64,000 bases of DNA from Loxodes magnus. Taxonomy: Eukaryota > Ciliophora > Karyorelictea > Loxodida > Loxodidae. Location: contig CAMPDV010000078.1 in NCBI GenBank assembly GCA_946699065.1, positions 806,001 to 870,000 of the forward strand, written 5' to 3'. Of the stretch, positions 9,241 to 62,180 are shown piece by piece; positions within the stretch are counted from its first letter, which is position 1, and every line of letters begins with the position of its first letter. The translations under genes and the position numbers were made by a program. The notes beneath the pieces were generated by a model. That model did no database searches, had not been told where the DNA came from, and saw only the letters and a program-made list of their open reading frames with translations.

Positions 9241-9254
9241 ACATTTTTTTTTAA

Positions 9255-9288
9255 AGAGCTGCGCACCAACGAGAGTGCTACGCGCTCT
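9255..9288 (+). repeat. Dispersed hairpin repeat, copy B
   Basis: Same stem-loop as copy A with one extra base in the loop arm (GAGAGTGC instead of GAGGTGC), followed by the same TATAATCAAATTTATTT tail. Together with the inverted copy at 13484 it brackets 4.2 kb containing the minus-strand RING/UBL gene, with both AT tails facing inward. Confidence 0.8.
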
Positions 9289-9677
9289 ATAATCAAATTT
9301 ATTTATTTATTTATCTAATATCTCACTTACACGAAAACTGGGCCACTAAAATACTCTTTTATAAAACTCTTGAAAAGTTAGCAACACGACTTTTATTATT
9401 GAACAAACTAAATTAAAACTTATCTAAATCATGCTATAAAATATGCACAAGTGAATATATTTTAATAGTAAAGTGAAAAAATAAAGTATTTATGAACCCA
9501 AAAGACAATTATAAATTAATTCATAAATTCCTAATATACTGTTAATTATTCTAAAAAATTATAATTGTTTAATCTTCCTTTTAGATCGCATCTTAAATGC
9601 AAATAATAAGATATAATTTTATATTTTTTTAATTAAATACAGTTTTAAATAAAATATTAAAGTAATTTGTGTTCTCA

Positions 9678-11922
9678 TCAATTGATCACTATCATAATGT
9701 AAATTGACCCTTACGTCCTGATTTCTAAAGACTTTACTTACCCCCTTATGATATTTTAAAATAATCATACATTCTATAACAATAATAAAGAATATTACTT
9801 TCTAATTAGAAAAATAGTTATAAATTATTACGATCTAAATAAATAATTATCCTATAACAATCTCTTACATGCTATTGATTAAATAGTTCCTTACGATCTA
9901 AATGGAACCTTTAACTGCAACTTACCGACTTAATTTTTCACTTTTAACTGCGACTTACACACTTAATTTTTACCTTTAAATGCATCTTACTAACTTTATT
10001 TTTCACCTTTAACTGAAACTTACTCTCTTCATTTTTCACCTTTAACTGTAACTTACTCTCTTCTTATTTTACCTTTGAATCGACTTACAATCAAGATTTT
10101 TCACCTTTTACTACAACTTACAAACTTCATTTTTCACCTTTAACTGCAACTTACATTCTTCATATTTCACCTTCAATTGTAACTTACCAACTTTTTCCCC
10201 CTTTAAATATAACTTACTCCCTTTATTTTTACCTTTAGCTGCAACTTACAATCTTCATTTTTAACCTTTAACTGCAACTTACATTCTTCATTTTTCATCT
10301 TTAACTGTAACTTACTATCTTTATTTTTATTTTTAAATGCAACTTACTATCTTCATTATTCACCTTTAACTGTAACTTACTTTCTATGTGTTAAGAATAT
10401 TTAAAATTAAACTTACTATTTATGTGTTAATAATTCTTAGAATTTTAAGCTTACAATCTTGATGTTAAAAATATTTAAAATTTCACTTTACTTACTATGT
10501 TTTAAACAAATTAAATGTAAACTTACCTGTATTTGATGAGAGATTTTAACTTACCTATATTAAATTAAGTGTAGAAATTTGCCATACTTCCTAACACGAT
10601 TGTTTAAAATTTTTATAATTACCTTCCTCTTTTAAAAATATTATTAATAATTACCACCTGAAATAAATAATTTAATTTTTAAAGAACTTACTCAATTGCA
10701 TTTGCAGTTAATCACCATTCACTATCTTAATCTAAGCTATTGTTTATTCATCCTCCAAGATTGTTTTAAAGATTCAGTTGCTCTTCAATAAGTCCAAGTA
10801 AGATGGTCATAACTGAGTTTATTAATAGATATATTGCTTTATCTACTTGATTGAAGTGTCTTATTTGACCTAGAGTTATAAAGTCTTCTTGGTAGGCGAT
10901 ACTATTGTTATGGAGATATTTTAATTCTAACTTTACTACTGATAGAGTTATTAAGTTTATTATAAAACTTAAAATCGTGTGCTTTATTATTACATTTGCT
11001 AATCTATTGTCTTTTTCAAATCTTAAGCTTATTTCTAATTGGAGGAAGATTAATTCTCTTACTCTTATTAATATTTTTGATTTTACTATTTAATTTATTC
11101 GATTGTCTTTTATAAATCTTAAACTTATTTCTGATAAGAGGATGATTATTTATCCTACTCTTATTAATACTTTAGATTTTACTATTTAAGCTAGTCTCTT
11201 TTCTAGATTGCTTTATTTTAAGACTTCAACAATTATATTTATAATAATTATAGCTAACTTGCTTACTCTTTTATAAACTCTTAATGCTTCTCTTATTATC
11301 TTTAACATTTTTATAACTTAATCTTACAATCGATGTTTTATTAGAAAATACTTAAGTTGTAACTAGCTAATTTGCTGTATTCTTGCTAAGCCTTTTATAA
11401 GACACTTTTGCCATTCTCAATCATTTTATTTTATTCTTATCTTGCAAGATCACCATATAAACTTTAAGATTTCAATTAACCTTATATCTCCATCAGATCA
11501 GTTATCTTCTTCTTTATCAAGGCCAACAAGCCCTACAAATTTTTTTATATATCGGAGCTGCTTGCTAGTAAATAACTTTCAAGATCCTTCATAAATTTGT
11601 TTATAATTTTGATTTTAACTTTTTTCAAGTTTAATATTTCTTAACTAAATTCCTTTTCTAAATTTTTTAGAGTATTTAAATCATTTTATAAGGATGATTA
11701 TTTAATACTTTATAATAAGCATTCATCAGTTTTTATCTTTGATGGATGTACTTGAGTATATTCCTTACAGCCAATTTTTACGCATTAGATTTAACTAGCA
11801 TTTAGAAAGTTATTTTGAATACATTCGTAGCACATTTAATGCTCACATGATAGAATCATTGGAACCTTCTTTAAATCATCAAAATCTCCGTTACAAGCTT
11901 CACACTTGTTGTTTATGGACAT
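9678..11922 (-). CDS. RING finger / coiled-coil / ubiquitin-like protein with a tail split by an intron ladder
   Basis: Probable E3 ubiquitin-ligase-type protein. ATG at 11922 opens a 1231-nt first exon (410 codons plus one base). Residues 7-52 form a RING with ligands C7, C10, C26, H28, C31, C34, C47, C52 (core ILSCEHQMCYEC). Residues about 75-325 are Gln/Lys/Leu-rich coiled coil with a repeated SSSYQKQ/SSSNQKQ motif. Residues about 336-410 match the ubiquitin fold: KTLQLQV, then SIKQIK, a P-x-x-L segment, LEDEQT and IVNGDQLQMQL. No UGA ends the frame here. Intron 1 starts at 10691, and the rest of the protein is encoded almost entirely by 3-nt exons, ending in KWGLIN and UGA at 9678-9680. 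Paralogue at 54302. Ligase activity is inferred from the RING. Confidence 0.85.
9689..10691 (-). repeat. Intron ladder: ~30 short GT-AG introns separated by 3-nt exons
   Basis: Read on the minus strand, the sequence is GTAAG...AG, three bases, GTAAG...AG, three bases, and so on for about 1 kb. The middle (about 9905-10385) is a 33-bp tandem repeat (GTAAGTTGCAGTTAAAG then GTGAAAAATGAAG, plus a variable triplet). The last seven introns (9689-9905) are unrelated in sequence yet keep the same spacing, so this is not simply a minisatellite. Joined triplets read in phase 1 give a tail ending YQKWGLIN and UGA. Oddities: one unit near 10090 has TG where AG is expected, and the first few units (10450-10660) do not all parse to 3-nt exons, some introns abutting directly. 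Confidence 0.75.
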
Positions 11923-13406: not shown

Positions 13407-13483
13407 TAAAAGCATTTAAAATCTATTAAGAATCTCAAATTTACTATGTAGTTAAAATTTTTTTAATAAATAAATTGGATTAT

Positions 13484-13517
13484 AGAGCGCTTAGCACTCT
13501 CGTTGGTGCGCAGCACT
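13484..13517 (-). repeat. Dispersed hairpin repeat, copy C (inverted)
   Basis: Reverse complement of the copy A/B stem-loop, with GTGCT replacing GAGCT and AAGCG replacing ACGCG; the AT tail lies at lower coordinates, facing copy B. The paired changes leave the hairpin mostly intact. Confidence 0.75.
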
Positions 13518-13534
13518 TTAAATTAATTTTATTT

Positions 13535-14449: not shown

Positions 14450-16130
14450 TAATGAATTATGTTTTGTAAATTCATATTCTCAAGCTTACTTCGAATTCAG
14501 CATCTTCTTGATAAACTCACTCTCCACTATATTCTCAAAACTACAATTTACTACTTGATTGAAGATGTCTATTGTAATTCACTCTAAATTAATTACTATT
14601 TATATTTAAATTATACACTTACCGGCTTTTATACTTAACCATCTTTAAGATCTTATAATAATTTTTATATATCTCACTTTCTCGCCTATTTATCTTATCC
14701 TCCTGATAATACTCATTTATTGTCTTCACTCAGCATTAATCGTAAATTTCTCCCTATGTCCTCGTAATGTTATTAACCTTTCATCTGTTTAGAAATTCCA
14801 TATTTTGATAGTGCTATCATATGATCCAGATATTATATACTTATTGTCAGTTGCTATTACTTACATTTTCACTGGATTTTTATGACCTTCTAAAGTACTT
14901 ATGTTTTGTACTTTTTAAAAATTTGATATTTTGAATGTTTTTTCATTACCTCCAGATATTATGAGCATGTTATCATGTGTTAATACTATTTTTCTTATAA
15001 TTGAAAAGATGATAGGAGCTGATATTAGCCTTCTTGACTACACTTCTAGCTAGGAACAAGTTCCTTTCCTATCGTTGAGAAAGTCCCTGATCAGAGACAT
15101 TTTCTGAAGTAGATGCTGTTTTTGAATTATCCGCTCTTGGTAGGGCTTACTCACAGCGATGAAGTTCCCTAGCAACTGTGTCTGAAGTACAACGGGATGC
15201 CCCCGTTATTCCTTAAAAAGAGAGCGTCGGATGGTCTAATCGGAAATGAGCTTCGGTCTCAAAAACTTTTTTGGCTGAAATTAATTAATACAATTTTTTT
15301 AGTTGAGGCTTGATGTCCTTAGATAGTTTAAATAAATTACCCAGTTGAAAAATTAAATATCTTTATAGTTTAATCAGAACTTCCCGATATTATTTATTTA
15401 TAGTCGCTTATTATAGCTTTAGATAAACTGATTTTTATATCCCGTCAGAGTATTCTTGCAGGTTCCATTTAGAAAATCCCTTATCTTTTTGTATTATCTC
15501 TACTCCCCGAGACGATTCATTTCTGGTAATTTGTTACCACTACCGATCTAAAATAACTCGTATGGCTTATCAAAGTACTTTTTAATGTCCCATTCAGAAA
15601 TTCCATATTTATATTATACTAGCATAACTTCTCGAAACGATTTGCTTCAAATCCCTCTTTACAGCTACCAATAAAACTTCTCTCATTCATCCAATAAAAG
15701 TACTCTTATAGGATCCATTCAGAAAATTCAAATTTTTATAGTCAAATCTTTCTTTCTGATATGATTCAATTTATTCTCTCGTAACCGCTATCGAATAAAT
15801 TCGATTCATATATTTCAACAAAGTATCAAATGATTAGGGCAAGTCCATTTACTGTTAATTAAATTTGCTCTATTTAAGATGCGGTTTATTAGTTTCGCAT
15901 TCCTTTGACTGATCTCTTATAAATTTTAATTTCTAAGATAAAAATCTTGAAGATTTGTTCATTCAAATTAGCAATTTAATTTCTTATTCCCTGGCAAATT
16001 AGTATAAAATTATAATTAAACATTTTAATATTGCTATCTCATTTGCAGAAGCTTGTTCTACTTTGATATCTGCCTTAGATAATTCTATGATATCATTCAA
16101 TTTTTATATTAAGTTTTAACTCGATGACTG
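14450..16130 (-). pseudogene. WD40-repeat gene, broken by frameshifts and a GC-rich insertion
   Basis: Minus-strand WD repeats are clear: YIISGSYDSTIKIWNF, LEGHKNPVKMQVIATDNK, SEDNKWVLSGGQDK, IISGSSDQTIKIFNF and IVSGSRDNT. At least six blades are visible between 15850 and 14650. Successive repeats need frame changes of one base. In two repeats the shift falls at the same place, just after IKIW/IQIW and before L-N-G. A ~300-bp GC-rich repeat (15001-15297) interrupts the array. A normal GTAAG...AG intron candidate near 14590-14630 suggests the gene once spliced. I read it as decayed; sequencing indels or programmed frameshifting are the alternatives. The intact protein would be a beta-propeller scaffold. 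Confidence 0.6.
15001..15297. mobile_element. GC-rich SINE-like repeat, copy 1
   Basis: Begins ATTGAAAAGATG and ends GAAATTAATTAA, as does the copy at 33783-34103; the two are related along their whole length. Near the right end, GAGAGCGTCGGA followed by TCTAATCGGAAA resembles the D-arm end and anticodon arm of a tRNA, followed by T6, a polymerase III terminator. It lies inside the WD40 gene. I cannot identify target-site duplications with confidence. Confidence 0.55.
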
Positions 16131-33782: not shown

Positions 33783-34103
33783 TTGAATGATTGAAAAGAT
33801 GGTGGAGCTGAGAATGGCCTTCGTGACAACACTTTCTGGTTTTATGGCTAGGAACAAGTTCCTTTCCTGTCGCTGAGAAAGTCCCTGGTCAGGGTCATTT
33901 TCTGAAGGGAACACTGTCTTTGAGATTATCAGCTCTTGGTAGGGGCTTGAAGCCTGGCTGCTCATAGCGATGGAGCTCCCTAGCAGCTGTGCCTGGAGCA
34001 CAACAGGATATCCCCGTTATTCCATAAAAAGAGAGCGTCGGGTCGTGTAATCGGAAAGGAGTTTCCGGTCCAAAAACTTTTTTAGTTGAAATTAATTAAG
34101 AAC
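33783..34103. mobile_element. GC-rich SINE-like repeat, copy 2
   Basis: Full-length relative of the repeat at 15001-15297, sharing ends ATTGAAAAGATG and GAAATTAATTAA and the blocks AGGAACAAGTTCCTTTCCT, CAGCTCTTGGTAGGG and GAGAGCGTCGG. The right end again looks tRNA-like and is followed by T6. A 78-codon standard-code frame on the minus strand is a by-product of the GC content. The minus-strand gene at 35118 reads into this element in frame. Confidence 0.6.
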
Positions 34104-35118
34104 ATTTTAATAACTAGTTTCTAGCATAAATCAAGGAAACTATTATTTAGTAAGTTAGAATTTATTTTAAATTAATAGCTATTTAATTCCTTTTGTATTT
34201 CTACAATTCCAATTTTAAAGCATTTAAATTTAAAGATTTTATTTGCTTCTGTATTTTTATAATATTAATTTGCTTATAGATATTTAAAATAAAAGTTAAG
34301 CAATAGAGATGTTTATAATTTTAGCCTATTAGAAAAAACTTATAAGGGCAAATGAATTCATCTACTGTGAGTTTATTGCATTTATAGAATACTTCTTTAA
34401 GATATTTACCCTTAAATAAATTATTTGGTCTCAATAATTCCACTGAAAAAGTAGCCTATTTATATCTGGATATATCTACAATTTTTATACAGTTTAGTTT
34501 AAAGTTGAAATTTAGATATTTAAGAGATATAAGTAAATTAAAAGATTTTAAACAATTATAATATTTTTCGTTGAAAGTCTAATATTTTTTTCCGCAAAAA
34601 ATAACGCAAATTATACAAGGCTCAGATAGTTTCCATCACTACTAGATATATACTATATTTTTATTCTAGTTATAACCATTTTCAATCTAGAATTAATTTA
34701 GATATTTTAGTATTAAAGCAATAAACATTAAAATAGAAAAAGGCATTAAAGAATAATAACTTTATACTAAATAAAAGATAGGATAGCTTATTTTACAGTA
34801 TCCCTTTCAAAGTATTTTGCTTTTTTTATTTAGAGTTAAATTTAGAAGGAGGTATTATGGTAATTACGCTTCTTGCTTCTGACTTAATTTATTTTGAAAA
34901 AAGTAATTACTTTAAACTGCTATTAATACATGATTATATGAGAACATCAACATCTGAGGCTAATTAATAAAATAATCCTTATCTAACTTCCTTTTGAAGT
35001 TCTATTTTTGTCAAACTTAAAAAGCTTATCCAAGCTATTTCAAAGTTTAGTTTTTTAGTTCTAAGATTAAGATTTTTTGATTTTGTTTAATAGATTGAAT
35101 AAATAGACTTGCACTCAT
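33895..35118 (-). CDS. Uncharacterised protein, possibly ending inside the SINE-like repeat
   Basis: ATG at 35118 (MSASLFIQSIKQNQK) starts a frame that keeps good composition to about 34120, with no intron needed. It has a Cys-rich stretch (PCIICVIFCGKKYQTFNEK) and LRPNNLFKGKYLKEVFYKC. Three in-frame UGA codons in the body are read as Trp. The first UGA beyond the good region is at 33895-33897, inside the SINE-like repeat, making the last ~65 residues repeat-derived (1224 nt in all). An earlier end near 34110 is equally possible. It diverges from the receptor at 35180 across only 61 bp. No domain recognised. Confidence 0.5.
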
Positions 35119-35179: not shown

Positions 35180-38100
35180 ATGGACACCAAGACTTATAAA
35201 ATCCTTCTGATTCTTAATCTAATTTTACTAAGTTAATGTAGTGATTTAATTAAGATATGCTTTATTACTACGTAAATAACTCCTATAAACCTACTTAGTT
35301 ATATAGAAAGCTAATTTGGAGAATATACGTAGAATCATGATTTTCATATAAGCAACTAATCTCTGACTGACTTAGATTCAGTTGAAAATTTAAAGATAAC
35401 AACTAGAGAGTTAAATGTAAATATAGTGGTTGATATTACCTTCAATAAGGCAATTTCTTTCTTCATAAAATAAGCTTTAAGGTAATAAGATTTGCTAATT
35501 TTAGTCCTCTACAGATTGAGAGATTCAAATGAGAATAAACAATTTCCTAATTCTTTTATATAGTACCATCATACTAATCAGAAAGCGAAGCTTTAAAATC
35601 CTTCCTAAAGCATTGAGATTTCTGGAATGTGGCAACTATTTACTAGTAAGATAGAGAATTTTATTTACCAGCAGAAGAACTGTTTAAAGTGACTTAGATT
35701 AAAGCTTCCATTAATATACCATACTCATATAGCTTCGAATAAGATAAATGTGATGACTAAAGTAAATAAAAAGTAGATTTTGAAGTCTTCAGATTATTAA
35801 AAATTTTAGGAGTTCCAATTAGTATATTAAACTGCTAGAACTGCTGAACTTAGTTTATCCTCGAGCAAGCTGTGAAACTCAACCTTTGTGATGGTTATGC
35901 TTGAATTTTAGGTTTGGAATCCTCTTCATTTCTCTATCAATTTAATCTTTCAGATTCATAAAACAATCTTAAGCTGATAGAAAATGGAATTTTAGCTTTA
36001 ACACCAAAGGGATGAATTCCATAGAGCTTTGAGCATTTTTACTGAATGTATTTATTGGAAGTAATTAATCTTATTGATTAAAAGCTAGAAAACAAAATGA
36101 GCATCATAAAGGAATTTAGAAAAATTGCAGGAAATATCTTCAATAACAATCATTTAAGCCCTTAATTTTAAATGGTAAATGCCTAAAATTCTAATTTTAT
36201 CTTAGTAGCTAATTTTAACTAATGTAGCTACTAAGAAGTCGAGAAAATAATATGGCCTTCTCAAAAATTAAATCCTCCTTTAAATTAAATTCAAATTTAA
36301 ATTAGTTATGCAACTGGTTTAGGTGAGGGGCTATCTGGGAAGCTGCTGTAAGTTCTATAATTAAATACTAAAATAGCTTCCTTGTGCTATAAAATATGTA
36401 AATAATAGGACAAACGTATTAGCAGGATATAACTACTCAGGCAATTCACTAAGCTATGGAAGTCTTTTGGTTAGTACTACTTAAATAGCAACTGAATTCT
36501 TAATGAATAAGTAAAAAGTAGGAATTGTTCATATCCCTCCAATAGTTTTCCTGCAGATCTACTATTCTTTCTTAATTGTCAACTAAATGCTTGGCTTCAA
36601 CCTTCCTTTCATCTATTCAACTCCAATATTAGAGTTAGAATCTACCTAAACAGTTCCACTTTACTTAGCAAATGTTGAAATCCTAAAACTAAAACTTAAA
36701 TTTTTATTTAGTTGATAAAAAGAAAAAAATGGAAAGAAATAGGACATTACTATGACGCTAACGAGTCTACAAACAAGTTATAATATGAAATGTTAAAGAA
36801 TGGTGTGAAAAGAATGGAATAAAGCTACTAAACAATGTTACTGTTTTTCCATTAATAAATACTACTGTTGAAAGTAGAAAAACTTTAGGAAAGAAAGTAG
36901 CAAGAGATTTTATGGAAAATGAAATTAAAGTAGTTGTTGTCATAGGAGAAGCTACCTCACTTCCAATAATTGGATAAGAACTTATATATCTTAATTTCTA
37001 ACCTGGAGACGTAAATTTCGTGCATACTATATCTACAAGCTTCCTCTTTGTAAAAACTCCTAATGTTGAGAATGTTGATGATGTTAAGTTTACTTTGCAT
37101 GGTTCATAGTTTATTACCTTGCCAGCATGAATTGGTGAGACTGGATAAGATATGCTTGAATTCTAAAAAAAATGCGACCCCGAAACAGTTTCAGAATGCT
37201 ATGTTTGAGAAGAGCCTCTTATAATAGCTTATGATGTCAAAGAAGTTATTAAGCAAGGAGAAGATTACAGAAACTCTTTTACTTTGATGAAAGCGATCAG
37301 AAGATTGAAAATTACAAGCTGTTCTGGTACAGTTAAATATTAGAAAGCAATAAATTACAGAGACTTAAGCAACTTCATTATTTCATCTATTTATAGCAGA
37401 AATTAATCCAATCCATAAATGAATCCAAGAGAAGAATTTCGCTTAACATGCTCGATCATTTGGAATATTATAGAAGAGGGACTATTATGAAATGATAATA
37501 TCACTTTAACACCTGCTGACTAATTTGAATAATATAAGAATTGTCCCTTTACTGAAAGACATCTATTTGCTTATCATAAAGGCGAAAGATAACTCATAGC
37601 CCTCATGATTTCTTTTATATCTTTCATGCTTATTTTTGCAGTTCTAGGTATATGAATTTGAAGAAAAAGGAAATACGAGTTAATAACGAATGAAAGAGAA
37701 GCTTCGATGCAAAACGAACTTTTCTTGTTTTTTATAGTATTCCAATTAATGCAATTAACAGCATTAGGTCCTGATGTAAAGCATATACTGGGTTAATCAG
37801 CATAACTTATAAAAGATTATTTTATTCTAGATTTGGTAGGAATTGCTAATTCTAGTACTTTCTAAACTATATTCATAATTAATTTTTGCACCTGCATTGT
37901 GTGATTAATTATGCTAGTTTCATTTTTAGCAAAACTAGACGTAGTAACTTCGGTATCATTCTTTCAGGTTCTGGGGAATTTTTCTTTTTTTAACTCTCCC
38001 TCTGATGGGAAAAATTCTCCTTGTTCCACTTTCAGTTATTCTAATGGATCTTTAAATGTCTTAAAGGTTAAGATTTAAATATAGATAACTTTATTGATAA

Positions 38101-39234
38101 ACACGAAAGCTTTTTGGAAATAGATTTTGAGTTAGAATGCTGAGTGGGCAAGCACTATTTATGAGTTTTTCTATCACTAATAAGCTAAGTAATATTCATT
38201 CCTTGGGTTGTATTATCAATGCCTCATTGATAAGATACATTTGACTAAACTCTAAACTTGAAGCAAAATCCAATTTATATAGTTATTAATTCTTATATTC
38301 TAGTGCTTTTAAGTTACTTAAGTAGCTGCTAAAAGCACTGGAATTCGAGCTTATATGGCTATTTTTATATAGTCATTATGGTGCTTTTTACATCCTTCCA
38401 TTTTAAGTATAAACCATGGAGCTTTGCCTTTTTAAATTGGTATCTGGAATTGGGCTTTGTTTAATAGCATGAACAATGATATTAATTTAGCTTCTAAATG
38501 AAGTGAAAGATGCTTAAGCTAATATATCTTTTAGGACTTTACTAATAATAGGATACTTTATGATACTATTAGTAGGAATAGTAATAGGATAGAAGAAATA
38601 CTAAGTTATGCTTAAATGAGATACTCCTGATAAAGCTATGCTACTAGATTTGCCTATAAATGTGGAGCTTAGATTAGCATGCTCTAAGACCATCTGGAAA
38701 AATAAAAGTAAAGAATTTTATCTAAAGGCTAAGTGGTGGATTTTGCTAAAATAGAGCTTGGAAACTCTTCTATGATTCTTTCAGACTAAATATTAAGTGA
38801 TAATCTCCTTTCAGAATATAATCTCAATCAAATCTAACTTGCTTCTTAAGATTAATTTAAAGAATCCAAGTAAGAGGACGAAAATTCTAAGAGCCTTGCT
38901 TAGTAAGCTTTTTATTTAGGAAATTCAAAAAATAATGACTAGATAAGACAAACTCCTTTGACATTACCACAATTTAAAATAATAAGAGCAAAGATTTAAT
39001 TCATACTGAGGAGGAAAAGAAAGAGATCGAAAAATCAAAATCCTGTGAAAATATCGAAGCATAAAATCAAAAGAATGAAGAATAGGAGTAAGAAAAGTAA
39101 GAAAATAAAAGAAATGAAGATGACTGAAAATTCTATTTTTAACTAGAAACTTTAGATTTAATATAATTTTAACTACACAAAGGCTAATTAGAAAAATAAT
39201 CAAGCAATCTCTTGCTTTAAATGATAAATACTAA
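35180..39234 (+). CDS. Receptor with signal peptide, apparently two ANF-type domains, and a seven-helix region
   Basis: ATG at 35180 begins with a signal peptide (MDTKTYKILLILNLILLSQC). Domain 1 (to about 36280) has the ANF pattern, e.g. SESEALKSFLKHWDFWNVAT; a 23-nt GT-AG intron at 35482-35504 restores its frame. Domain 2 (about 36380-37400) starts AIKYVNNRTNVLAGYNYSG and includes VKEWCEKNGIKLL, KVVVVIGEATSLPIIG and the SCSGTVKYQ segment seen before the membrane in class C GPCRs. The linker NCPFTERHLFAYHKGERQL precedes the first helix (about 37590); hydrophobic segments continue to 38600. A charged tail ends at UGA 39232-39234. Against the fragment at 46780, two single-base shifts (near 38440 and 38645) are apparent, so recent damage or sequence error is possible. 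Confidence 0.65.
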
Positions 39235-42655: not shown

Positions 42656-42728
42656 TGCCGAAACCCGGGATTGAACCGGGGACCTTTAGATCTTCAGTCT
42701 AACGCTCTCCCAACTGAGCTATTTCGGC
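42656..42728 (-). tRNA. tRNA-Phe (GAA)
   Basis: A 73-nt cloverleaf on the minus strand. The acceptor stem is GCCGAAA/TTTCGGC with discriminator A; the D-arm is GCTCAGTTGGGAGAGC; the anticodon stem-loop is TTAGACTGAAGATCTAA with anticodon GAA; the T-arm is CCCGGTTCAATCCCGGG. All stems pair and no intron is present. CCA is not encoded. Phe decoding is standard, so it does not bear on the stop-codon reassignment. Confidence 0.97.
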
Positions 42729-46779: not shown

Positions 46780-47900
46780 CATTGAAATGTCTTTATGGAA
46801 GAGAATTAAATTTCGATGATTTTATTGATAAAGGAGAAAGTTTTATTGAAATGGACTGTAGTCTTTAATACTATTCGTTTAAGCATAAGGTCTATTTTAT
46901 TTTAGCTTTGGCTAGTTAGTTAACTTTTATTCCATCTGCTATACTAGCCATGCCACATTGGCAAGATATATACCACTTTTCTTTGAACGTTAAATAAAAG
47001 CCAAATTATATCCTTTTTTATAGTTTTACTCAAGTAGCATTAAGCTGCTTATGTAGCTGCTTGAAGCACTGGAAAGAAGATCTCTATGGATTCCTTTATA
47101 TCTCAATTATGTTCATTTTTACAATCTCTCACTTTTTAGCCAAACCTTGGAATTATCAACTTCTAAACTGGTGAAATGGAATAGGACTCAGCTTGGTAAC
47201 TTGTACAATGGTATTTGTTCATCTTACTAGAATAGTAGATAATTCCAAAGCTCACTTAGCTTTGTTATTATTCTGGGAGTAGGAGATTTCTTAATACTAT
47301 TAATTGCTAAATTCTTAGGTAATTAGAAAAACAAAATTTGGCTTAATGAGACACTCCTGATAAAATAATGCTCTTTAGGTTTGCTTATAGATGTGGAGCA
47401 TAAGTATCGATGGTTGATAGTAATTTATAGAAATAAAAGTAAAGACTAAAACTAAAGAATACTTATGTAAACTATGAAAGAGTGCCTTAAGATAACTCAA
47501 CATTATACTCTAATTAAATTATGCTAGACCCAACCAATCTATCCTTAAATATCAACCAAACCTACATCCTTCTTAAACTGCCATTTAAAAAGAACAAAAT
47601 TACTAATACTTTCAAGAATCACAGGATAAAGGTAATTTATTCATTTAGATAAATGTAATAACAAGAAAACGCACCTCAGTATCTAGAAACGCAGTTTTCA
47701 TTTATCGAGCATAAAACTCTCAAGCAGAAGTGTAAAGAGATCAACGAAGAAATTTGAAATTAACTCTTATAACTTAATAGGATAATTTCCTTTAAGCCTT
47801 CTTAATTTATAAGTCAAACTAGAATCATAATTTATTAAGTATTTTCATCTTTTTATTTCCAAAGTATTTTAGAGCCTCAACTAAAATAACTAAATAAAAG
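46780..47900 (+). pseudogene. Broken 3' part of an ANF/seven-helix receptor
   Basis: Clearly homologous to the receptor at 35180-39234: LKHWKEDLYGFLYISIMFIF, FLAKPWNYQLLNWWNGIGLS, then QWDTPDKIM and FRFAYRCGAQVS, which match QKHWNSSLYGYFYIVIM, KYKPWSF, KWDTPDKAM and RFAYKCGAQIS there. No ligand-binding domain precedes it: upstream is the minus-strand gene. A one-base deletion before WDTPDK (AAA in the relative, AA here) breaks the frame. The tail to about 47850 keeps some coding character. I read it as a truncated, decaying duplicate. Confidence 0.6.
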
Positions 47901-54186: not shown

Positions 54187-54301
54187 AATTATTATTATTA
54201 TTTTTATCTACGTGTTTTTTTAATTTCATAATGATATTTAACGTATACTTACGTGGTTTTTATATATAAGGAATTGTTTTTCTAAAAAATAATAATAAGA
54301 A

Positions 54302-56030
54302 ATGTCCTAGGTTGTTTAATGTCAATCTTGTAACGGAGATTTCGAAAATTAGATGAAAGTACCCATGTTGTTGCCATGTGAACACAACATATGTTATCTA
54401 TGTGCGCATGATCAGTATCTAAAAACAAAAAATATCAAATGTGCAAATTGTCAGCAAGTTCATAAGATTCATCCTTCGAAGTTGTAAGAAGACAGTTAGT
54501 TACTTAAGTATCTTGAGTAAAAGAGTATCATGGAGAGTATATCATTGTTGGAGAATCAATCACTGAGATTGCGTTAAGCTTAGACTTAATTGTCTAAGGT
54601 TTACAGTTCTTTTATCTAGTAGTTGATTAGGCACGTGAGTAGTTACGTTTTAAAGGGCAATATTGGCTTATAAAGGTAGTTGTTTGACTAGGATCGATAA
54701 ATTTAGGAGTAGTTAAGGTTCTTAAAAATCTAGAGGTAAGTAATATCTATTAGTAATAACTATTAGTAATAGCCATTAGAATTACTAAGGTTAGGATATT
54801 TCTAGGTATGAGTCTAAGGTGTTGAGATTGTTAGATGAGGTTTAGAGGATCATCGATGTGAGGGTATCGGTTAATGTTTTTGAGGAGTTGGACAATTATA
54901 AGTTGAGTCAGGAGTAAATGGTTAAGGAAAATGATTATTTGAGGAGTGAGATATAGAAGTTGAATGATTAAGTCTAGAATCAGTAATAATAGTTGACTTA
55001 GTTATAAGGTTAGTTGATCTAGTTCTAATAAGTAACGCCAGTAGTGTAGCTTAATTAGCCAATTTCTCCTCTTTAGAATATTCCTAAGTAGACAAAAAAA
55101 TAGGATATCAGTATAACCATAGTATCGCCGAACAATAAGACCTTAAAGCTCTAGGTCAAATAAGAAACTACGATAAAGTAGATAAAAAAATAAATCGAAA
55201 AATAAACTGAGTTATTATCATATACTCTCGACATCTTAAAGATCAATACTTATCTGAAGGACGGTTAATCAGTATCGAGTTTATAAATTGTCGATGGGGA
55301 ATAGCTTCAAATGAAGTGAAGTAAGTTTAAAAGTTAAATGTATTATTAGATGGTAAGTTTACTATATAAATAATTTTAGGAAGTACGTCACATTTTTAAA
55401 ACATATAGAAGGTAAGTATTTTAATATTCTTTAAACATATAGTATGTAAGTATTTTAATATTCTTTAAACATATAGGGAGTAAGTATTATAATATTCTTT
55501 AAACATATAGAGAGTAAGTATTTTAATATTCTTTAAACATATAGGGAGTAAGTATTTTAATATTCTTTAAACATATAGATGGTAAGTATTTTAATATTCT
55601 TTAAATATATAGGGTGTAAGTATTTTAATATTCTTTAAACATATAGTATGTAAGTATTTTAATATTCTTTAAACATATAGCATGTAAGTATTTTAATATT
55701 CTTTAAACATATAGTATGTAAGTATTTTAATATTCTTTAAACATATAGTGAGTAAATATTTTAATATTCTTTAAACATATAGTGAGTAAATATTTTAATT
55801 TTCCAATTTAGAGTGTATTTATTAATATTGATAGTATGTAAGGTGTATTTATAGTTTTTTTTCTGTTTTTTAGATCGTAGGTTTAGAATAATCAAAATAG
55901 GAAGTGAGTTATTAATTATGTTAAATAGAATGTATGTTAGTTTAAGGTTATTATAAAGGGGGTGAGTTAGTGTTTTAATGAGTTTAAAATAGGACTCATT
56001 GAAGAATCGAATGGCTGTGAAATATTCTGA
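54302..56030 (+). CDS. RING finger / coiled-coil / ubiquitin-like protein with a tail split by an intron ladder, second copy
   Basis: Paralogue of the gene at 9678-11922. RING residues 7-50: C7, C10, C26, H28, C31, C34, C47, C50 (core LLPCEHNICYLC). A 31-nt intron at 54736-54766 (GTAAGT...TTAG) joins two frames in the coiled coil (SKVLRLLDEVQRI, ENDYLRSEIQKLNDQ, then Gln-rich). The ubiquitin-like fold covers residues about 255-329: ISITIVSPNNKTLKLQVKQ, TTIKQIKKQIEKQ, LKDGQSVSSLQIVDGEQLQM. The first coding block (54302-55320 minus the intron) is 329 codons plus one base, phase 1 as in the paralogue. Twenty 3-nt exons then continue the protein to KWGLIEES...F and UGA at 56028-56030, about 362 aa. 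Probable E3 ligase by its RING. Confidence 0.85.
55321..55992 (+). repeat. Intron ladder: 21 GT-AG introns separated by twenty 3-nt exons
   Basis: Introns at 55321-55349, 55353-55379, 55383-55408 and 55412-55442, then ten more at a strict 34-bp step to 55782, then 55786-55811, 55815-55834, 55838-55873, 55877-55900, 55904-55928, 55932-55958 and 55962-55992. Lengths are 20-36 nt; all start GT (mostly GTAAGT) and end AG. Introns 4-14 are near-identical 31-mers (GTAAGTATTTTAATATTC, then TTTAAACATATAG), whereas the triplets between them differ (AAG, TAT, GGA, AGA, ATG, GGT, CAT and others). The last triplets ATC, GAA, AAT, GGG and final-exon GAC match ATC, AAA, AAT, GGG, GAC in the minus-strand gene. 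Confidence 0.85.
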
Positions 56031-56061
56031 GTGAGTGAATGACTTTAAATACTTAATTTAA

Positions 56062-56152
56062 ACTCTACTTAATTTGAACTCTGCTTAATTTGAACTCTGC
56101 TTAATTTGAACTCTGCTTAATTTAAACTCTACTTAATTTGAACTCTACTAAA
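56062..56152. repeat. Short tandem repeat, ~18-bp unit
   Basis: About five units of CTTAATTTGAACTCTG with small changes, directly after the RING/UBL gene, probably in its 3' flank. No other structure from here to 56810, which is AT-rich with short direct repeats (ATATCTTTAATATATCTT, TTGTTTGTTATATTA). Confidence 0.7.
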
Positions 56153-57919: not shown

Positions 57920-60000
57920 AATTTTTAGATTTTTGGATTTTTAGATTTTAGATTTTAGATTTTTGGATTTTTAGATTTTTAGATTTTTAGATTTTTAGAT
58001 TTTAGATTTTTGGATTTTTAGATTTTTAGATTTTTAGATTTTTAGATTTTTAGATTTTTAGATTTTTAGATTTTTAGATTTTTAGATTTTTGGATTTTTA
58101 GATTTTTAGATTTTTAGATTTTTGTATTTTTAGATTTTTGTATTTTTAGATTTTTAGATTTTTGGATTTTTAGATTTTTGGATTTTTAGATTTTTAGATT
58201 TTTAGATTTTTAGATTTTTAGATTTTTAGATTTTTAGATTTTTGGATTTTTAGATTTTTAGATTTTAGATTTTTGGATTTTTAGATTTTTAGATTTTTAG
58301 ATTTTTAGATTTTTAGATTTTTGGATTTTAGATTTTTAGATTTTTAGATTTTTAGATTTTTAGATTTTTAGATTTTTAGATTTTTGGATTTTTAGATTTT
58401 TAGATTTTTGGATTTTAGATTTTTGGATTTTTAGATTTTTAAATTTTTAGATTTTTAGATTTTTAGATTTTTAGATTTTTAGATTTTTAGATTTTTAGAT
58501 TTTTGGATTTTTAGATTTTTAGATTTTTAGATTTTTGTATTTTTAGATTTTTGTATTTTTAGATTTTTAGATTTTTGGATTTTTAAATTTTTGGATTTTT
58601 AGATTTTTAGATTTTTAGATTTTTAGATTTTTAGATTTTTAGATTTTTAGATTTTTGGATTTTTAGATTTTTAGATTTTTAGATTTTTGTATTTTTAGAT
58701 TTTTGTATTTTTAGATTTTTAGATTTTTGGATTTTTAGATTTTTGGATTTTTAGATTTTTAGATTTTTAGATTTTTAGATTTTTAGATTTTTAGATTTTT
58801 AGATTTTTGGATTTTTAGATTTTTAGATTTTAGATTTTTGGATTTTTAGATTTTTAGATTTTTAGATTTTTAGATTTTTAGATTTTTGGATTTTAGATTT
58901 TTAGATTTTTAGATTTTTAGATTTTTAGATTTTTAGATTTTTAGATTTTTGGATTTTTAGATTTTTAGATTTTTGGATTTTAGATTTTTGGATTTTTAGA
59001 TTTTTAAATTTTTAGATTTTTAGATTTTTAGATTTTTAGATTTTTAGATTTTTAGATTTTTAGATTTTTGGATTTTTAGATTTTTAGATTTTTAGATTTT
59101 TGTATTTTTAGATTTTTGTATTTTTAGATTTTTAGATTTTTGGATTTTTAGATTTTTGGATTTTTAGATTTTTAGATTTTTAGATTTTTAGATTTTTGGA
59201 TTTTTAGATTTTTAGATTTTTAGATTTTTAGATTTTTAGATTTTTAGATTTTTAGATTTTTAGATTTTTAGATTTTTGGATTTTTAGATTTTTAGATTTT
59301 TAGATTTTTGTATTTTTAGATTTTTGTATTTTTAGATTTTTAGATTTTTAGATTTTAGATTTTTGGATTTTTAGATTTTTAGATTTTTGATTTTTAGATT
59401 TTTAGATTTTTAGATTTTTAGATTTTTAGATTTTTAGATTTTTAGATTTTTAGATTTTTAGATTTTTAGATTTTTGGATTTTAGATTTTTGGATTTTTAG
59501 ATTTTTAGATTTTTAGATTTTTAGATTTTTAGATTTTTAGATTTTTGGATTTTCAGATTTTTGGATTTTTAGATTTTTAGATTTTTAGATTTTTGTATTT
59601 TTAGATTTTTGTATTTTTAGATTTTTAGATTTTTGGATTTTAGATTTTTGGATTTTTAGATTTTTGGATTTTTAGATTTTTAGATTTTTAGATTTTTAGA
59701 TTTTTAGATTTTAGATTTTTAGATTTTTAGATTTTTGTATTTTTAGATTTTTAGATTTTTAGATTTTTAGATTTTTGTATTTTTAGATTTTTGGATTTTT
59801 AGATTTTTAGATTTTTATATTTTAGATTTTTGGATTTTTAGATTTTTGGATTTTAGATTTTTGGATTTTTAGATTTTTGGATTTTTAGATTTTTGTATTT
59901 TTAGATTTTTAGATTTTTAGATTTTAGATTTTTATATTTTTGGATTTTTTTATTTTTAGATTTTTGGATTTTTGTATTTTTAGATTTTTGGATTTTTAGT
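57920..60000. repeat. 2.1-kb minisatellite of the octamer AGATTTTT
   Basis: About 260 units of AGATTTTT with recurring variants GGATTTTT, GTATTTTT and a 7-bp AGATTTT. The variants are not random: a motif with two GTATTTTT units, one AGATTTTT apart, followed by GGATTTTT returns near 58130, 58540, 58690, 59100, 59310 and 59590, showing higher-order repeats. Strongly strand-asymmetric (T-rich on plus). It is not a known ciliate telomere repeat. Confidence 0.95.
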
Positions 60001-62180
60001 AATCAATTTTTTTTTAATTTAATAATTTTTTTTATATTATGAATTGGAAAAATTCAAAAAGTAAAGATAATTAATTAAATTTTTAATCTAATTTAAATAA
60101 AATAAATTTTTATAATTTTAGTGGAGTTGAGGCTAAGAAAGTTTTAATCTATATCAGTTAATTTTTGTTTAACTGATAAAATCAATTTAAGATGTAAAAA
60201 TTTAATTTTTATTTCTAGCTCTGAATTTTACTATAGAAGATTTTTCGGATGGAACAAAAATTTTAGAAATTTTGAATCAAGTTTTTAAGTCTAAAGTTAT
60301 TCTTATTAAAGTAAACCATTTAGAATTTTTTTAGATAATGCACAATATGGAGATTAGGAATATTAAAAAATATTTTTATAATTAAATTTTTGTTTTTTTA
60401 TTTTAGATTTACTACAGGAACTTTTAAAGATAGACTAATATTTAAATAATTAAAAAAATATAATTTAATTTAATTTTTTCACTTTAAGTTTTTAATAAAA
60501 ATATTTGTTTATTAGACTGATGCTATTAAGAATTTTTTTTAATAATAATCAATTAATTTAGTTTTTTATATTTAATACTGATAAAGATGATAAATATCTC
60601 ATTAAGAAATATTAAAAAATAATATATATTTTAATGTTCATTTAAGAATTAAAAATTGCTAAAAAAACAAATTAAAAATCAGAAAATTTATTTTCTTCTA
60701 AATATAATTTAATTGCAAATATTAAATTATAAAATGAGAAAAAAATTTAATAGCAAAAAAAATTAAAATTTTTTAGACTATATCATATGAATCTTTATTC
60801 ATACACCAATAAAAACTTAAAAACTTTAAATTTTTTATAATGAAAGAAAACATTTTTTTTGCAGAAGACATGAAAAATTTTAATAAACATATTTGTATAT
60901 TCTAGAAAAAAACTAAATATATTAAGCTAAAATTTATTATTAGTAATGCATTGCTTTCACAACAATTATTTTTAAATCTAAGTTTAGTGTTTAATATTAT
61001 TAACTGTAAAATTTAAAATTAAATTATAGTTAACTGAAATATTTTAATTTCCAAACCAAACAATTTTAGAAGTTAATTCTAAATAATTAAATATTAACTA
61101 ATATTACTATAAAAAATTACTTTGAAATCTATAAAACTAAAATTTTTTAATATTGTTAATCTTTTAAAAATGTATAAAATATTGCAGAAGTTTAATCTGA
61201 TAACATAATAAAAGATACTAAAAATTTTAAATAAAAATAAATATTTATATTAAATAAAATAAATTTATATAATTATGATACAAATTTAAAAAATACAATA
61301 GAATATGTTAATTAAGCATCAGAATAAATCATTTTATAAAATAAATATACAAATTAAGAACGAAAAAAAATGAGGCTAAAACTATAGAATAATCTAACTG
61401 CTCTGCATTTTAATTTAATTATTATAAAAGAAAAAATAAAAAGATAGAATTACATTGCAAAAACTGATGAAGATACTATTAAATACTATTTGAAGGCTTA
61501 ATTACTAAATTGTTGTCTTTTAAAATATTTTAAATTAAGCTAAACATTAAAATAAAAGAACATAAATAAATAATAAATAAATTTGATTATAGAGCACGTA
61601 GAACCTCATTGGTGTGCAGCTCTTTATAATAAAAAAGAAAAATAAATTATAAATTATAAATAACTAAGCTATTTTAATTTTTTTCATATTAAATTAAAAA
61701 AATTAAATCCTCCATCAACAGTAATTTTAAAATAAATAAATTTTAAATCAAAACATCTTTACAAAAAATATCAAATAATTAAAAAAGATAAATAAAAATA
61801 ACTTAATAAAAAACAAAAAATTATTAAAATTTAAGAATCTAGATATATGTAGTTAAAAGCTTTATGCAAAATTAAAAGATTAATAATTAATAAAATAGCT
61901 ATATTTAATAAATAAATAAATAAAAGATGCATACAAAGTAATTATTTTTTATTATAATAGCTTAAATTATAAAAAATTCAATAATTAAAAATTAAATAAA
62001 AATTGCAATCTAACATCTTATAAAAAAAATTATTTTTATTGATTCTTAACTATTTGAATTTTTTTGCAAAATAAAAAACAAAGGAGCAAATTTCCTCGAT
62101 ATTTGAAAGATAATTATTAGATAATTTAAGAAACTATAATATAACATAATTTATTAACGTGGTGTCACCTTTATTTGGTT
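60001..62180. other. AT-rich region, no gene recognised
   Basis: Apart from degenerate copies of the CACTATAGGG-type box near 60215 and 60400 and hairpin copy D, I see no gene, tRNA or repeat on either strand. Confidence 0.4.
61591..61623 (-). repeat. Dispersed hairpin repeat, copy D (inverted)
   Basis: Reverse-complement copy of the stem-loop with changes GCACACC/GGTTCTAC; AGAGC/GCTCT is intact and the AT tail lies to the left, as in copy C. It is the most diverged copy. Confidence 0.7.

Follow-up and report, generated by a model that had tools for sequence, protein, structure and literature searches.

Genes of a RING-like/ubiquitin-like (UBL) family in the ciliate Loxodes magnus appear to carry a spliceosomal intron in every codon of their 3′ coding part, and we put at about 0.86 the probability that removal of one intron per codon gives these proteins a hypervariable C-terminal tail. 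We analysed a 64-kb window (the whole stretch of DNA under study), which holds one array on each strand, and searched the 705,730,643-base, 7,843-contig genome assembly for related sequences. The layout of the arrays, their reading phase and their recurrence in a family, the preserved splice dinucleotides and C-terminal end motif, and codons that change faster than the introns around them can all be read directly from the DNA. The original prediction of an intron after every third nucleotide, in phase 1, in a RING/UBL gene is supported at the level of sequence by this family evidence.

Two arrays in the window

Gene 1 lies on the plus strand. Its 5′ coding part (54302–54736), identified by translation, Pfam and family conservation, encodes a RING-like finger and the start of a coiled coil, with UAR read as Gln; in L. 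magnus UAA and UAG specify Gln and UGA specifies Trp or stop (PMC11441545). The reading frame differs between 54736 and 54822, and the intervening region (54737–54821), with a GTAAGT donor at 54737, must hold an ordinary intron that shifts the frame. The remaining coiled coil and the UBL part (54822–55320) extend to the first array donor and are marked by Pfam matches below cut-off and by a phase-1 end common to 21 of 21 family members. Because the Pfam matches to RING (for example, zf-RING_UBOX, E = 1.5e-4) and to ubiquitin-like domains fall below the curated cut-offs, though a C3HC4 spacing is visible by eye, we use the names RING-like and UBL-like. A Pfam search on ten long open reading frames of the window gave 0 hits. 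The exon before the array ends ATG AAG TGA(W) A, the in-frame UGA at 55317–55319 being read as Trp under code 27 (PMC11441545).

Exact listing of array 1 (55321–55992, plus strand) gives 21 predicted introns of 20–36 nt and 20 predicted 3-nt exons, in agreement with the original count of 21 consecutive GT...AG segments set 3 nt apart. In order, the segments measure 29, 27, 26, eleven times 31, 26, 20, 36, 24, 25, 27 and 31 nt, and the triplets between them are ATG GAA AAG TAT GGA AGA GGA ATG GGT TAT CAT TAT TGA TGA AGT TAT ATC GAA AAT GGG. The joined triplets were claimed to run on to a UGA, and the phase-1 reading NGKVWKRNGLSLLMKLYRKWGLIEESNGCEIF does reach one at 56028–56030. The predicted last exon (55993–56030) starts GAC TCATTG and closes the phase-1 reading with ...KWGLIEESNGCEIF* at this UGA stop; the joined gene 1 tail would comprise the end of the UBL part, the 20 triplets and GACTCATTGAAG.

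Eleven near-identical 31-nt introns with differing triplets form a homogeneous block at 55412–55782 (a tandem repeat of period 34), in which the mean pairwise difference is 0.018 per intron site and 0.667 per triplet site. As near-identical copies of a 34-nt tandem repeat, these eleven segments do not provide independent links. Among the other ten segments, two of 26 nt partly resemble the 31-nt unit and the rest differ in sequence and length. A further candidate, 17-nt introns within coiled-coil-like units seen by eye, was rejected: such introns would leave exons of 15 nt in some units and 16 nt in others, and would find no internal AG to use in the 31-nt unit of array 1.

Both strands of the whole 64-kb window were searched for chains of GTA/GTG donors, introns of 15–42 nt and a fixed spacer of 0 to 12 nt. 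Chains of at least 10 with a 3-nt spacer occur in two places, 55316–55982 (plus strand) and 9689–10416 (minus strand, in two pieces). Among 30 copies of the window simulated with a third-order Markov model, the longest 3-nt-spaced chain was 3; 500 second-order copies of 54301–56100 yielded a longest chain of 6, once, and at most 4 in all others. In the real window, spacers of 1, 2, 4–6 and 8–11 nt gave no chain of at least 5, and chains of this length with spacers of 0, 7 or 12 nt were confined to the inside of the two arrays. When any GT was accepted as donor, a 2-nt-spacer chain of 6 appeared at 54592–54753, within the gene 1 coding sequence, and a chain length of 6 therefore means little by itself.

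Gene 2 (10692–11922, minus strand) is a paralogous, divergent RING/coiled-coil/UBL gene, recognized from its code 27 translation, which reads two in-frame UGA codons as Trp, and from Pfam matches below cut-off; a protein homologue search with gene 2 returned none at E ≤ 0.001. Behind it, sequence and parse place array 2 (9689–10691, minus strand), a series of GT...AG segments in which most exons are 3 nt long; its intron unit, of 30 nt, is not related to that of array 1 (31 nt). The first half of array 2 is irregular, with a 6-nt exon, AG–GT joints and units lacking AG; downstream from 10454 the 3-nt rule is kept, apart from two over-long segments with a non-AG inner acceptor. With the last exon counted, the final six triplets are TAT ATC GAA AAT GGG GAC in array 1 and CAT ATC AAA AAT GGG GAC in array 2, an agreement of 16 out of 18 bases; the intervening introns differ.

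Elsewhere in the window, about 262 copies of ATTTTTAG make up a satellite of 2 kb with extreme GC skew, downstream of gene 1 (57921–59999). An interspersed repeat of about 70 bp is present in four copies in both orientations (1085–1153, 9245–9314, 13453–13526 and 61563–61636), and a repeat of about 324 bp, 79% identical, occurs at 14997–15297, where the surrounding reading frames look WD40-like by eye, and at 33787–34108. Two stretches of 66% identical DNA (38051–38714 and 46782–47445) are probably paralogous genes, and a tRNA-Phe(GAA) lies at 42656–42728 on the minus strand.

Genome-wide recurrence and conservation of the arrays

The 31-nt intron unit of array 1 has 877 matches in the genome (up to 2 mismatches), with 0 in a reversed control and 0 in viral contigs. 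A pattern of three GTAAGT donors, two short introns and 3-nt exons has 9,713 matches (5,471 + 4,242), compared with 121 (106 + 15) for 2-nt exons and 11 (11 + 0) for 4-nt exons; the reversed controls gave 0 for all three spacings. Genome-wide, matches with 3-nt spacing outnumber those with 2-nt spacing about 80-fold and those with 4-nt spacing about 880-fold. Giant arrays exceeding 10 kb (C675 and C4762), home to many of the 2-nt and 4-nt exceptions, contribute to these counts. The giant arrays (C675:204633–216715 and C4762:129–11245) have the unit GTAAGTTAAAGTTTAAGGTGAAAATGAAG, with some spacers of 2 or 4 nt, and are either decayed, satellite-like arrays or assembly errors. The 2-nt and 4-nt units in these few giant arrays, together with the broken units of array 2, count against the splicing reading.

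Gene 1 belongs to a large, partly clustered Loxodes family of RING-like/coiled-coil/ubiquitin-like proteins. Array regions for comparison (6 + 14) were taken from the first places listed, a non-random set picked for having arrays. Among these 20 array loci, the UBL query reaches the array in 19 (exception L051) and the gene 1 RING query matches in 19 (exception L047, whose RING is represented by a weak gene 2 alignment and half of the cysteine pattern only). L051, with a RING start and a partial array only, was left out of the 21 members. The RING part alone as query has at least 150 matches in the genome (best 150 of 3,319 candidates, weakest E = 6.8e-26), a lower bound in which near-identical copies, and perhaps duplicated contigs, are counted. 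Contigs with numbers below 300 hold 32 RING matches, and in 19 of them the array-end pattern (ATC-intron-NNN-intron-AAT) follows on the same strand within 2 kb downstream; for the remaining 13, it lies within 6 kb in two, at 12 kb in one and is absent in ten. At three of these ten (L045, L053 and L054) an array is present, but its end triplets are different or the contig stops within it. L059 (C587:45750–46650), the one member selected by its RING part instead of by an array, also has an array; a UGA precedes it, and a single GC-AG intron stands among its GT-AG introns. Many identical-scoring copies of the L059 RING part exist in the genome. The array at L009:3528–7759 has more than 100 units, its spacers being mostly AAT and TCT and its codons split by a nearly identical intron, and in phase 1 it reads as a Gln-rich tail.

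Pooling over 20 arrays, with the gene 2 array (win2) left out of intron and triplet counts and segments longer than 37 nt left out of the distinct introns, yields 278 distinct array introns of 15–37 nt, with a mode of 29 nt. The predicted introns have U2-type GT...AG ends and the donor consensus, 134 of 278 starting GTAAGT, and 257 of 278 end in TAG (136) or AAG (121), although the parse itself demands GT and AG and weakly steers the later donor bases. Usual introns of L. magnus have a mode of 17 nt, 93% measuring at most 25 nt (PMC11441545), and the greater length of the array introns counts against the splicing reading. An internal AG at least 15 nt from the donor is found in 69 of 273 distinct introns, against a mean of 85 (range 68–102) in shuffled bodies; as internal AGs are just mildly rarer than in shuffled bodies, the choice of acceptor is not obvious. 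The parse also produced 22 segments longer than 37 nt, some without an AG–GT joint; the AG–GT joints within over-long segments of 11 members look like lost codons.

Splice dinucleotides are kept between paralogues, with 1 of 713 aligned GT/AG sites differing (a sum over eight non-independent pairs), compared with 149 of 4,429 sites in intron bodies (1.3–8.5% by pair). Exons differ at 0 of 75 sites in the near-identical copies L056/L057, at 8 of 90 in L045/L058 and at 27–40% in the other six pairs, with labels taken from the first member's parse and gap columns omitted (at most 46 of them exon-labelled in the 27–40% pairs). Likewise, within homogeneous blocks in nine arrays, units differ pairwise by a per-site mean of 0.000–0.028 in introns and 0.24–0.76 in triplets; the units compared had the modal length and no more than 6 differences from the most frequent intron, a choice that lowers the intron figures by construction. 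By these alignments, the predicted 3-nt exons change much faster than the surrounding introns; the cause may be selection for diversity, unit exchange between arrays or exon-aimed mutation. Eight arrays in which all introns are different (L046, L048, L049, L050, L054, L055, L056 and L057) keep the 3-nt rule in most units, and a pure tandem-repeat artefact was rejected on this ground.

Reading phase and the C-terminal motif

The first array donor lies one base into the codon following the UBL part in 21 of 21 members, the phase originally claimed for gene 1. Immediately before this donor stands UGA in 3 of 21 members (win1, L009 and L012), UGG in L047 and other sense codons elsewhere, and because UGG or other sense codons fill this position in other members, the UGA at 55317–55319 is, on comparison of the family, most likely Trp. 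Were translation to stop there, the array would be a satellite in the 3′ flank, its GT...AG segments produced by tandem duplication of one old intron. The in-frame UGA of those three members and of L059, the ending of the UBL matches already at 55317–55319 and the tandem repetition of 11 of the 21 array 1 segments all favour such a satellite, as does the usual shortness and AT-richness of L. magnus 3′ UTRs (PMC11441545). By contrast, the codon before the array is not UGA in 18 of 21 members, the eight arrays with all introns different still obey the 3-nt rule, and the joined triplets carry a conserved motif, coding-like GC content and synonymous variation in phase 1. We regard a flanking satellite as improbable.

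When the arrays are read as coding, the joined phase-1 triplets end in a common motif, LYREWGL, as in the tails NGIIIGWIVHYDEKLYREWGLIDW (L010), RNGELLFSYEVDYIYREWGLIN (L014) and NRWDNYSMKTTKQQELDLKKQQEELDL...QELYREWGLMI (L058). Of the 21 phase-1 tails from the automatic parse, 14 have WGL near the end and that of L055 has WGM. The tails of win1, L009 and L013 have W without WGL because the automatic parse chose a shorter last intron, and gene 1 with a 31-nt last intron gives KWGLI; the triplets of the gene 2 array read YQKWGLIN by hand, the automatic parse of win2 having stopped after 2 introns. The end motif is absent from the tails of L050 and L054. Several members are close relatives, and the family members are for this reason not independent.

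The array-end pattern permits a comparison of phases at the variable triplet, NNN. This pattern is loose, with 385 matches compared with 215 in the reversed control, and some of its strings are therefore chance. From 100 rows among the matches listed (pattern total 385), 6 incomplete ones were left out; the other 94 comprise 71 distinct strings, of which 54 were parsed, 12 have no GTA/GTG donor and 5 gave no parse (an earlier hand-picked version of the test had 52 rows, 51 distinct). In the 54 parsed strings NNN is GTG in 21, GAG in 10, GCG, ATG and GAA in 3 each, and rarer others. Among the matches listed, NNN in phase 1 yields CGN (Arg) in 39 of 54 strings and Arg-Glu in 35 of 54, and the Arg-Glu strings have GTG (21), GAG (10), GCG (3) or GGG (1), that is, all four bases at the silent place. 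In phase 0 the same triplets give a mix of Val, Glu, Ala and Met, and in phase 2 they give UGA in 26 of 54.

Across 18 members, UGA codons are rarest in phase 1 (5 of 428, compared with 19 of 446 in phase 0 and 32 of 428 in phase 2); L009 and L057 were left out of these and the likelihood counts, and with both included the figures are 6 of 573, 20 of 593 and 41 of 573. Codon-usage likelihood per codon is likewise best in phase 1 (−3.895 versus −4.165 and −4.273), and the GC content of the middle triplets is about 30%, like that of the UBL coding part, with 15% in intron bodies. Two other readings were tried and rejected. Phase 2, entered through an alternative donor at 55316 that avoids the in-frame UGA, would need a donor that is missing in L010, and this phase introduces many UGA codons; phase 0 has a weaker likelihood, and its variable base would alter the residue.

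The end motif also bears on a further possibility, in which a single intron running from 55321 to a distal acceptor takes out the entire array, or most triplets are skipped, and the conserved triplets have a different role. Very short exons are hard to include, and skipping would keep the frame; however, the end motif and the synonymous variation in phase 1 span separate 3-nt exons, and GT and AG are kept at each unit, and we give this explanation little probability.

Excision from DNA during macronuclear development, in the manner of very short internal eliminated sequences, would fit a ciliate host, and small precisely removed segments occur in other ciliates. The segments are nevertheless present in the 705.7-Mb assembly, which we take from its size and code to be macronuclear (the reported sizes are 706 Mbp for the macronuclear genome and 848 Mbp for the germline; PMC11441545), and that report describes no classical excised segments found in L. 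magnus. Moreover, GTAAGT...AG ends are intron signals, and the assembly contains 0 contiguous, intronless copies of the joined end motif, a lack that also weighs against the splicing reading. Among the mechanisms originally proposed, micro-exon or stepwise splicing thus remain, and DNA-level removal is very unlikely, given that an assembly of somatic size contains the segments.

A proposed splicing route and its known relatives

In the spliceosomal reading that we favour, a short intron would interrupt the coding sequence past the UBL part at every third nucleotide, one base into the codon, and intron removal would fuse the single-codon exons into a C-terminal tail. This tail would open briefly, often with N-G/R, continue through a hypervariable stretch of about 10 to more than 100 residues and finish in a conserved LYREWGL-like sequence. 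Because a 3-nt exon is too small for recognition as an exon, the introns are probably recognized singly (intron definition). Removal is probably stepwise, each splice joining a triplet to its neighbour so that the triplet becomes the end of a longer exon. We infer transcription, splicing, translation and the order of removal, and also the mode of array growth, in which tandem duplication or unequal exchange would add and remove intron-plus-codon units while the codons diversify. With every exon 3 nt long and phased alike, the frame would be preserved whether units were duplicated, lost or skipped. A bolder extension, which we hold tentatively and which could well be wrong, is that the arrays act as a codon-by-codon diversification engine: near-identical introns would serve as homology spacers, single codons would be duplicated, lost and exchanged in frame, and skipping of any set of exons could give many tails per gene, in a large RING/UBL-like family with hypervariable recognition tails.

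If spliced as predicted, arrays in which 20 to about 100 successive codons each contain an intron would be, to our knowledge, the densest intron layout known. Recursive splicing similarly involves stepwise removal through an adjoining acceptor and donor, an arrangement resembled by the AG–GT joints in 11 Loxodes members; recursive splicing and zero-length exons, however, break up long introns and leave nothing, whereas in the Loxodes arrays 3 nt would stay per step. The Drosophila homothorax gene reportedly has a single isolated micro-exon. Spliceosomes can include exons of 1 nt and 3 nt, as single micro-exons, with APC11 of Arabidopsis as the reported case (PMC4674806), and in view of this published 1-nt exon the original statement that 3 nt is at or below the known limit for spliceosomal exons was a little strong. 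The APC11 and homothorax micro-exons are, as reported, one tiny exon per gene, whereas Loxodes has arrays. Tiny ciliate introns (15–16 nt in heterotrichs, mode 17 nt in Loxodes) are also very short (PMC11441545), but the array introns are longer, with single codons between them.

The nearest known system is that of the flatworm micro-exon genes (MEGs). In schistosomes and tapeworms, MEGs are reported to have consecutive tiny exons in multiples of three, and also share fast-evolving products, difficult annotation and in-frame skipping (PMC7653826, PMC4350168, PMC10526429). One structural definition of a micro-exon gene, at least 7 exons of which at least half are micro-exons (<70 nt, divisible by three) with a run of at least 4 (PMC7653826), takes in the gene 1 model with its 20 consecutive predicted 3-nt exons. 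MEG exons are given as 3 or 6–81 nt long, mostly 15 nt, with introns of 0.1–5 kb and secreted products (PMC10526429). By contrast, the Loxodes arrays have one-codon exons, a RING/UBL-like protein, runs of up to about 100 and introns of 20–36 nt, which place gene 1 outside the 0.1–5 kb intron range of schistosome MEGs.

In the main text of the Loxodes genome paper the term 'microexon' is absent and 'exon' appears twice (PMC11441545), and our searches of open-licence PubMed Central papers other than preprints turned up no account of single-codon exons in arrays. Annotation built on ordinary read aligners is likely to overlook such genes or to model them incorrectly. If the prediction is true, the layout would recur in many genes of a family for which at least 150 RING matches were counted, and a spliceosome that handles introns of 20–36 nt, 3 nt apart and in series, would provide a sharp test of intron definition, order and fidelity. 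Exons that diverge while their introns stay would then constitute a new route to variable proteins.
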